Source: Burkholderiales bacterium
Lineage (GTDB): Bacteria > Pseudomonadota > Gammaproteobacteria > Burkholderiales > SG8-39
Assembly (NCBI GenBank): GCA_014860445.1
Contig: JACZJT010000037.1
Coordinates: 1 to 57,274, forward strand
DNA length: 57,274 nucleotides
Reading direction: 5' to 3'
Shown here: one piece after another, positions 39,230-41,540 of the stretch
How the letters are laid out: every line of letters starts with the position of its first letter
Position numbering within the stretch: position 1 is the stretch's first letter
Notes under the pieces: generated by a model
Told to the model about the DNA's origin: nothing
Seen by the model: only the letters and a program-made list of their open reading frames with translations
Databases searched by the model: none
Made by a program: the position numbers and the translations under genes

Positions 39230-40078
39230 ATGACAGACCCCCTTAGCGCGTATCACGACAGGCAGTACAACGCCCGCGCAATGATCCCCGATCATGAGCA
39301 GATTTTCGAACGCGGCAGAAAACGCTCGGCGGAGGCGCGCAAGAGCCTGGCGTGCCGCCTCGATATTCCCTATGGCGCGAGCCCGGCGGAAAAACTCGAT
39401 ATCTTCCCCGCTGACGGAAAAAGCGAGGCGCTGCTGGTCTTCATCCACGGCGGATACTGGAGGTCGCGCGACAAGAGCGACTTTTCCTATCTTGCCCCGG
39501 CCTTCGTACGCCAGGGCGTGACCGTCGCGATTCCCAACTACGGACTGTGCCCCGAAATCGGCATCGAGGATATCGTGAAGCAAAACCTGCTCGCGATCGC
39601 ATGGCTGTGGTACTACGGCGCACGCTACGGCGTCAATCCCGGCAGGCTGTATGTGGCAGGACACTCGGCCGGCGGCCACCTCACGGCAATGATGCTCGCG
39701 GCGCGCTGGAACGTCTACATGCCGGAACTTCCCTATAACCTTGTGAAAGGCGGCCTCACGATCAGCGGCATCTACGACCTGGAGCCCCTGGTGCATGCGC
39801 CCTTTGTAAACCAGGACCTGGGACTGGATCAGGCGATGGCGCGCAGGCTGAGCCCCGTGAACATTCCGCCCGCCACCACGGCGCCGCTGTACACAGCGGT
39901 CGGGGGCGAGGAAAGCGAGGAGTTCAAGCGCCAGAACGCGCTCCTTGCGAGGACCTGGCGTTACGCCTTTGCCGGCGACATCCCGATGCCGGGATACAAC
40001 CACCTGACGGTGCTCGAACAACTTGCGCGCACGGACAGCGCTTTGTTCAAGGGTGCGATGGACATGATGAGTCGCTAG
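39230..40078 (+). CDS. alpha/beta hydrolase, arylformamidase-like
   Basis: 282-aa serine hydrolase. The oxyanion motif is FIHGGYWRSRDKSDF and the nucleophile is in AGHSAGGHLTAM. A C-terminal GYNHLTVLEQ supplies the histidine. The N-terminal YHDRQYNARAMIPDHE helix and the HGGYW loop resemble kynurenine formamidase-type esterases. The start is MTDPLSAYHD (ATG at 39230). Its TAG stop codon is formed by the TA flank and first G of the adjacent MITE. Without the element, translation would end TAA, overlapping the glycerate kinase ATG. The function is uncertain; linkage to glycerate kinase was probably closer before the insertion. Confidence 0.85.
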   Translation: MTDPLSAYHDRQYNARAMIPDHEQIFERGRKRSAEARKSLACRLDIPYGASPAEKLDIFPADGKSEALLVFIHGGYWRSRDKSDFSYLAPAFVRQGVTVAIPNYGLCPEIGIEDIVKQNLLAIAWLWYYGARYGVNPGRLYVAGHSAGGHLTAMMLAARWNVYMPELPYNLVKGGLTISGIYDLEPLVHAPFVNQDLGLDQAMARRLSPVNIPPATTAPLYTAVGGEESEEFKRQNALLARTWRYAFAGDIPMPGYNHLTVLEQLARTDSALFKGAMDMMSR

Positions 40079-40268
40079 TGTCCCGAATCGCTAATTCGCC
40101 GAAGAAAAGACGCCGAGAAACGACGCCATACGGCGTTGCAAATGCTCGCAAGGTGTCCAACCTTGCTGCGCTTTGCGCCTTGTCTGGCGCCGTTTTCGCC
40201 GCTTTTCTGTCTCAGCCATCGTCTTCACCCCAGGCATTTTTTCAACGAACTAACGATTCGGGACACTA
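40076..40268. mobile_element. 193-bp MITE-like element with TA target duplication
   Basis: Terminal inverted repeats of 23 bp (40076-40098 against the reverse complement of 40246-40268) match at 21 positions. They begin TA-GTGTCCCGAATCG. The outer TA on each side looks like a target duplication, as made by IS630/Tc1-type transposases. No transposase is encoded, so it would be mobilised in trans. Inside are small hairpins (CGCC-ATAC-GGCG; AAGG-TGTCCAA-CCTT). The element is open from GTG at 40078 to TAA at 40267-40269 (63 codons). It fills the entire gap between two genes and supplies the stop codon of the first. Confidence 0.85.
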
Positions 40269-41540
40269 ATGGATACGCGCGCCCTGCTCACGGAAAGTTT
40301 TCACGCCGCGGTCGGCGCCGCCGATGCAATGAAGATACTGCCGCCGCACCTGCCGCAGCCGCCGCAGGGCAAGACGCTGGTGGTCGGTGCGGGCAAGGCC
40401 GCGGCCGCGATGGCGCTCGCCGTCGAACAGCAGTGGCCGTCCGCTTCCCCGCTGGCCGGGCTTGCGATCACGCGCTACCGGCATGGACTGCTCACGAACC
40501 GGATCAATGTCATCGAGGCAGGCCATCCGGTCCCCGACGAAAGCGGCGAAAAGGCGGCGCAGGAGATCCTGCGCCGAGCGAAGGCTCTTGGCGCAAACGA
40601 CCTGCTGCTCGCGCTGATTTCGGGCGGCGGCTCCAGCCTCCTTAGCCTGCCGGTCGAAGGCATCAGCATGGAAGAGTTGAAGGCCACGACGAAAGAACTG
40701 CTGCGTTGCGGCGCGCCGATCCAGAACATGAACACCGTGCGCAAGCACCTGTCCGCCATCCAGGGCGGCCGCCTCGCCGCCGCGTGCAAAGCCCCGGTGC
40801 TGGCGCTGATCATTTCCGACGTGACCGGCGACGACCCCACCCATATCGGGTCCGGCCCCTGCGCGCCGGACCCGAGCACCTATCAGGACGCGGTTGACAT
40901 CATCATGCGCTACGGCGTCAAGGCGCCGGAGTCCGTGGCAGCGCATCTGCGACGCGGCGTGCTGGGCGAAATCGCCGAGACGCCAAAGCCCGGAGACAAG
41001 CTGTTCCAGCGGGTCGAGAACCGCGTTATCGCCACCGCACAGAGGTCACTGCAGGCTGCCGCCGCCTATTTCCGCGGCAAGGGCATCATGCCGGTGGTGC
41101 TGGGCGACAGCGTCACCGGGGAAGCGATCGAAGTCGCCAAGGTCTACGCTGCGCTGGTGCGCCAGATCCGCGACCACGGCGAACCGTTCAAACCGCCGCT
41201 GGCTTTGATTTCCGGCGGCGAATGCACGGTCACCGTGCGCGGCAACGGCCGTGGCGGGCGCTGCGCGGAATTCCTGCTGTCGCTCGCGCTGGAACTGGAC
41301 GGCATGCCCGACGTCCATGCGCTTGCCTGCGACACCGACGGCATCGACGGCTCCGAGGACAACGCCGGCGCGGTGCTCGCGCCGGATTCCATCGCACGCG
41401 CGGCAACGGCGGGCGTTTCGGGCAAGAAACTCCTGGAAAACAACGACGCGTACAGCTTTTTTGAAGCGCTGAATGATCTGGTCGTCACCGGTCCGACGCG
41501 GACCAACATCAATGATTTCCGGGTAATACTCGTACTCTAG
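40269..41540 (+). CDS. glycerate 2-kinase (MOFRL family)
   Basis: 423-aa class II glycerate kinase of the GckA/TtuD type, which phosphorylates D-glycerate to 2-phosphoglycerate. Typical segments are TLVVGAGKAAAAMALAVE, EAGHPVPDESGEKAAQEIL, LISGGGSSLLSLPVEGIS and NTVRKHLSAIQGGRLA (catalytic lysine region), and ISDVTGDDPTHIGSGP. The C-terminal MOFRL domain has GGECTVTVRGNGRGGRCAEF and ACDTDGIDGSEDNAGA. The ATG immediately follows the right end of the MITE, so it has lost any native leader. It may rely on the element for translation initiation. It is convergent with the SAM hydrolase gene 37 nt away. Confidence 0.92.
   Translation: MDTRALLTESFHAAVGAADAMKILPPHLPQPPQGKTLVVGAGKAAAAMALAVEQQWPSASPLAGLAITRYRHGLLTNRINVIEAGHPVPDESGEKAAQEILRRAKALGANDLLLALISGGGSSLLSLPVEGISMEELKATTKELLRCGAPIQNMNTVRKHLSAIQGGRLAAACKAPVLALIISDVTGDDPTHIGSGPCAPDPSTYQDAVDIIMRYGVKAPESVAAHLRRGVLGEIAETPKPGDKLFQRVENRVIATAQRSLQAAAAYFRGKGIMPVVLGDSVTGEAIEVAKVYAALVRQIRDHGEPFKPPLALISGGECTVTVRGNGRGGRCAEFLLSLALELDGMPDVHALACDTDGIDGSEDNAGAVLAPDSIARAATAGVSGKKLLENNDAYSFFEALNDLVVTGPTRTNINDFRVILVL

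Follow-up and report, generated by a model that had tools for sequence, protein, structure and literature searches.

Correia elements (NEMIS) of Neisseria take TA as their target, and IS630 is said, after the work of Tenzen and Ohtsubo in 1991, to prefer a TA that lies within CTAG. In hairpin-controlled translational coupling, a ribosome on the upstream gene opens the structure that hides the next start. Among mobile elements, ISY100 duplicates TA on insertion (PMC2170065), RUP of Streptococcus pneumoniae is a 107-bp element with a TA-containing target that has been proposed to be mobilised by IS630-Spn1 (PMC2229807, PMC3049150), and Correia elements are short and hairpin-forming (PMC4853749), each as described in the available portions of the papers cited.

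The element that we describe here lies between a hydrolase gene and a glycerate kinase-type gene in the window, by which we mean the whole 57,274-nucleotide stretch of DNA analyzed. Like IS630 and ISY100 of the IS630/Tc1-mariner group, it has a TA target and a TA duplication, and its genus contains transposases of the IS630 family; unlike them, it is a MITE that carries no transposase gene. Its likeness to RUP (short, TA-containing target) and to Correia elements (short, hairpin) is one of description only, taken from partial texts. The available parts of the RUP accounts (PMC2229807, PMC3049150) do not report landing on stop codons, those on Correia elements do not describe stop rebuilding, and a MITE review (PMC10969869) mentions neither stop codon, start codon, CTAG, IS630 nor coupling. 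No account of elements that rebuild stop codons appeared in the literature surveyed, which consisted partly of incomplete texts and had subscription papers mostly outside it. The MITE is a new one of a known type, and what is noteworthy is its frequent residence in stop codons, overlapping junctions included, with exact rebuilding of the stop.

Results

Anatomy of the element at the hydrolase-kinase junction

The original prediction described an element of 193 bp with ends matching at 21 of 23 positions and a TA at each edge, filling the space between the two genes, and the sequence confirms each of these features (Table 1). The claim that the element supplies the stop codon of the first gene also holds: the hydrolase frame ends ...AGT CGC TAG, in which the duplicated left TA of the target is followed by the first base of the element, G. 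The figure of 21/23 compares the first 23 nt with the reverse complement of the last 23, and a repeat finder gives 32-nt arms that are 84% complementary. The element is short and non-coding with terminal inverted repeats, as is usual for a MITE; the sole listed frame inside it starts at 40136 in another frame and runs into the kinase, and a codon-based caller finds no gene there. Its predicted fold is one long hairpin of -81.1 kcal/mol (z = -7.25), with 0 of 200 shuffles as good. Rfam, searched with 601 bases, gave no match within the element and one sub-threshold match outside it; a consensus search found no promoter in the element, and two terminator-like sites, both weak, compare with 0.7 expected. 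Kinase orthologues in the genus align from residue 1 and have ATG or GTG at that position.

Table 1. Features of the hydrolase-kinase junction, in window coordinates
Feature	Position	Strand	Basis and remarks
Alpha/beta hydrolase gene	39230..40078	+	Pfam BD-FAE/Abhydrolase_3; gene call ends 40078; stop TAG 40076-40078
Glycerate kinase-type gene (DUF4147 + MOFRL)	40269..41540	+	Pfam; ATG at 40269 abuts right TA
MITE, 193 bp including TA at each edge	40076..40268	.	Sequence; copies in genus
Left TA, one copy of target duplication	40076..40077	.	Single TA in G002 empty site
Right TA, other copy of target duplication	40267..40268	.	Single TA in G002 empty site
Left terminal inverted repeat, 23 nt including TA	40076..40098	+	21/23 match to right end
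Right terminal inverted repeat, 23 nt including TA	40246..40268	-	Match to left end
Apical hairpin (GCAAGG...CCTTGC) within the hairpin that spans the element	40148..40166	+	Predicted fold; some pairs kept by two-sided changes in related elements
Hypervariable spacer, mostly unpaired, element nt 134-166	40209..40241	+	Constant length in genus copies compared
GGGA, Shine-Dalgarno-like, 5 nt before kinase ATG, from the element's right end	40260..40263	+	-4.0 kcal/mol

Copies and spread

The original prediction proposed a search of the genome and its relatives for further copies, and the element proved to be dispersed; the lack of any such copies, which it named as grounds for refutation, is not the case. 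The host genome (G000; 4.6 Mb, 73 contigs) gave nine matches that represent six distinct insertions, L006 and L007 being one copy on two contig ends and L008 and L009 end-only matches inside L003 and L006, and its other full copies are 89-94% identical to the one in the window. Matches occurred in 11 of the 60 genomes searched (its own and 59 relatives): G002, G003, G007 and G008, all of the same genus, have full copies, G005 and G006 match in part, G040, G042 and G050 carry less closely related elements, and G059 has a core-only match. We refer to these elements as family A; the ends that a partner transposase would share are TAGTGTCC(C/T)GA. Of 300 genomes of the order searched with the exact end pattern, and of 369 of the class searched with a looser pattern, a single genome matched in each case, namely this one; no other species of the genus was among those sampled. 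A search of plasmids (blastn, distant mode) gave no match, and spread on plasmids was set aside as a reading. Marking of both ends in 50 candidates yielded 42 loci, which amount to 41 distinct insertions because L006 (G000) and L102 (G002) are one shared insertion; the eight candidates left out had a single end or ran off the contig (L069, L101, L100, L032, L098, L122, L123 and L127).

Several further observations concern the range of forms in which the element appears. Contig ends of G000 fall inside copies of family A (C25/C62) and of a second family, B (C51, C28 and C67), so that copy numbers are probably lower bounds. The end pattern also led to a groundwater Chloroflexi MAG, G329, in which JACPQN010000075.1 and other contigs (L105/L118-L127) carry elements of 154-319 bp with ends of the same kind, reflecting either cross-phylum transfer or mis-binned contigs. 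A copy of ~42-44 bp at L111:3532-3573 (JAENXP010000318.1), barely more than two ends, sits at the TAG stop of an open frame, and a solo right end at position 1518 of L069 (contig C6 of G000), 5 nt before an ATG, is probably a decayed small copy.

Empty sites and orthologous junctions

The nearest relative, G002, whose kinase is 92% identical over 373 residues on its contig, shows the hydrolase-kinase junction without the element as CGC-TA-GTGGATACGCG (CGC-TAGTGG), in which one TA is present and the TAG stop overlaps a GTG start. Eleven same-genus junctions have both genes, G001 and G008 being left out of the comparison for want of a hydrolase and a kinase match, respectively, and the window element is absent from all 11. 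The original prediction counted an unrelated junction in relatives against itself, and here the genus is divided: three junctions overlap (TAGTG in G002; TGATGG, with TGATG at the overlap, in G010 and G005), and in eight the stop and the start lie 11-329 nt apart. Its proposed ancestral overlap, CGC-TAATGG, is therefore borne out in part, since the overlap with a single TA is seen in G002 but TAATG itself is seen in no relative; TAATG would be the simplest ancestor of the window site by parsimony, at two changes versus three.

Two more insertions lie exactly in stop/start overlaps, and each of the three has empty orthologous sites with a single TA, so that duplication of the TA target is directly visible. 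The insertion shared by L006 and L102 separates genes for a TPP-dependent enzyme and an NAD epimerase, a junction that reads TAGTG without the element in G003, G004 and G005 and that looks different, with no overlap, in G007. The copy L034 of G007 separates a RelA/SpoT-type gene from a CYTH/CHAD gene; this junction reads TAGTG without the element in G001, G002, G003, G005 and G008 and has a gap with no overlap in G000 and G004.

Residence in stop codons

Across the family A superfamily, the stop of a predicted gene falls exactly at the element junction in 27 of 41 paired insertions (genus 12/17, G040 5/13, G050 2/3, G329 7/7 and G042 1/1). Stops were taken from a home-made codon-based caller, with weak calls at L124 (score 2), L017 (5) and L085 (11), so that one of the seven G329 copies rests on a weak call, and for G042 very little sequence from that genome was available to train the caller. 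Pfam was consulted for 27 of the 28 upstream proteins (L124 left out) and placed 24 of them in a family. The gene sides number 28, L087 being one insertion that serves two convergent genes, and in 28/28 the base beyond the element completes TAA or TAG; these sites were therefore stops before insertion.

Flanking sequence points to a CTAG preference such as IS630 has, with outer flanks C...G at 29 of 42 family A loci and 14 of 25 loci of family B, the window's own site being one that would have read CTAA, not CTAG. In 452 kb of G000, stops contain 41 CTAG sites, intergenic DNA 81 and genes 102; the corresponding counts for TA are 189, 1798 and 7223. With CTAG as the target, 34% of non-genic sites are therefore stops, versus 9.5% with TA. 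These nulls contain some MITE ends. Residence in stops exceeds the CTAG null in the genus (11/16 without the window copy, P = 0.004) and in G329 (7/7, P = 0.002). In G040, the largest of the distant sets, stops are not enriched relative to the CTAG null of that genome (5/13 vs 15/51, P = 0.33). TARTG overlaps are over-represented, at 3 of 12 stop insertions in the genus versus 2 among 191 stops at TA, and for one of the latter pair the caller placed the start 39 nt farther downstream, still in frame; without the window the count is 2/11 (P = 0.0057 binomial, 0.015 Fisher), and the numbers are small.

A second family at stop codons

In G004 the hydrolase gene of this junction has another TA-flanked MITE (272 bp, L046:1175-1446) exactly at its stop codon, as in the window. 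This family B, found through G004, is unrelated to family A; it has ends TAGGGGCTGTTGACATT and occurs at 272 bp and other lengths. Matches, partial ones included, number 26 in G000 and 44 in G005; insertions were counted in G000, G002, G004, G005 and G006, where 25 of 50 fetched loci had distinct paired ends. Of these 25, 17 are at stops, or 16 if the far base is required to give TAA or TAG, and that base gives a true stop on 17 of 18 gene sides. Pfam placed the upstream protein in a family in 10 of 10 tested (of 18), examples being SRP54 and tRNA synthetase class II (A) with DHHA1. Residence at stops exceeds the CTAG null here too (15/24 without the G004 copy, P = 0.004), against a null taken from G000 though the copies are mostly from G005. 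Pooled over both families, without the two copies that had drawn attention, 38 of 60 insertions are at stops with 20.2 expected (P = 2.4e-6), a figure that leaves out G050 (2/3, with a small null of its own of 1/13) and G042 (1/1, with no null).

Search for a transposase

The original prediction proposed looking for an IS630-type transposase with the same ends, and none came to light: a search of 11 draft genomes with PF13358 (DDE_3) gave three matches in the host genome, seven in three of nine relatives and one in G329, none with the ends of the MITE. Scanning of L036, L037, L038, L077-L083 and L168 for these ends produced no matching pair. L036, L037 and L080 score above the NCBIfam cut-off for IS630, and L038, a fragment, below it. 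The nearest candidate is L080 of G007, an IS630-family copy with 1171 bp between its ends, which are TAGTGTACTGCG (start TAGTGT), and CTAG at both edges. L082 was rejected as a partner, its ends being somewhat similar but its long frame looking by eye like another transposase type. The probable affiliation with IS630 is therefore drawn from target and end type only.

Discussion

We favor, at roughly 85%, the reading that the element is a non-autonomous IS630/Tc1-like MITE that inserts at TA, mostly within CTAG, and lands in stop codons with the stop rebuilt. An IS630-type transposase would cut the element out and paste it into TA, preferably within CTAG, duplicating the TA. Inside the genes of this high-GC genome CTAG is rare, and TAG stops that follow a C make up a good share of non-genic CTAG, which would turn stop codons into landing sites. 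The duplicated TA and the element's G then form TAG in frame while the second TA leaves the downstream sequence intact, and because G is the base next to the TA at either end of the element, the stop is rebuilt in either orientation. At a TARTG overlap, stop rebuilding means that one insertion parts two genes with both reading frames unchanged. The original prediction thus stands as to a repeated mobile element, TA duplication and an overlapping empty site, though not as to TAATG or the transposase, and it is widened here from one junction to widespread residence in stops.

Location at stops might be wholly a product of CTAG targeting, with insertions inside genes being lost and no other bias at work, a reading to which we give slightly less than even odds. 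The stop share of non-genic CTAG sites in G000 agrees with it, as does the distant set of G040, but the genus, G329 and family B each exceed the CTAG expectation. The remaining excess may come from targeting or from loss of insertions in regulatory DNA, and selection against promoter insertions could account for it. It is far less probable that the preference is only apparent, in that any insertion at TA writes TAG in one frame and truncated genes would therefore end at the junction. Whatever its landing site, the element does create a phase-0 stop from the TA and the G, and one family B copy (L212) may be such a case; against this reading, the far base, A or G, would complete a true stop in the empty site on all 28 gene sides in family A and on all but one in family B, many Pfam domains reach near the C-terminus, and orthologous empty sites have a natural stop at two loci besides the window.

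We attach a similarly very low probability to the reading that the element is not mobile but serves this operon as a fixed intergenic RNA with a function, or as an attenuator. In favor of such an RNA are the near-constant length and the long hairpin, in which two-sided changes preserve 25 of 60 predicted pairs across an alignment of 22 elements, and the pair-keeping changes could also stem from copying between arms. The element nevertheless occurs at unrelated loci in several genomes, is missing from every same-genus junction that has both genes (G004 having another element there), and has no match in Rfam; on the junctions and the Rfam result, a fixed riboregulator was ruled out.

For the mobile MITE that we favor, a further matter is whether expression of the split genes may be affected. 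The hairpin might keep them coupled, a ribosome at the TAG opening the left arm and freeing the start region on the right arm; this differs from known hairpin-controlled coupling in that the structure here would come from a mobile element, and we consider it doubtful. In the predicted fold, the unpaired probability of GGGA is 0.0 in three junction copies and rises to 0.25-0.56 once the stop region is held open, and the enrichment of TARTG overlaps described above also speaks for coupling. Opposed to it are the small numbers behind that enrichment and the reliance on fold prediction, the start codon of L102, which stays paired even with the stop region open, and the AUG in the window, for which the fold predicts a mostly open state (0.73) even with no ribosome present. 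The GGGA is stronger than 46% of 280 gene starts, hence average for G000, and it beats some empty sites and falls below others, which leaves the idea of a Shine-Dalgarno role for the element end a weak one. A fuller version of the same idea, to which we give slightly less credence still, is that of 'junction-safe' MITEs, whose ends, CTAG targeting and hairpin might allow entry into overlapping pairs with the stop rebuilt, GGGA supplied and stop and start adjoining at the hairpin base, so that the ribosome would be handed from gene 1 to gene 2 across 193 nt.

The favored reading suggests a rule, that TA-target transposons may live in gene-dense, high-GC genomes by way of self-repairing stop-codon targets, insertions elsewhere presumably being removed by selection. 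Such a rule would predict where elements of this kind occur and would explain overlapping genes that have been cleanly split. The filled and empty junctions would also serve as natural before-and-after pairs for the contribution of stop/start overlap to expression.

Length and internal variation provide a last set of observations. The element is exactly 193 bp long in 32 of 34 paired loci (genus 18/18, G040 12/13, G050 2/3), although G050 has other end sequences, and although elements of G000 and G040 have no gapless alignment and a mean ungapped identity of 0.42. The lone G042 element is 162 bp. Helical phasing was considered for 162 and 193 and for 154, 165 and 176, a series into which 178, 217 and 319 do not fit. 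In the genus, pairwise identity of the spacer is 0.555 versus 0.947 for the rest (17 copies), with no change in length, and the contrast is smaller in G040 (0.725 vs 0.922, 12 copies). If the 'junction-safe' reading were true, near-constant length with a hypervariable spacer would reflect constraint on the folded element or on end synapsis. Separately, L014 and L021 of G050 differ from L015 and other G040 elements in their terminal repeats and have in common with them a related core hairpin and the total length of 193, which looks as though one shared body had been fitted with different ends.
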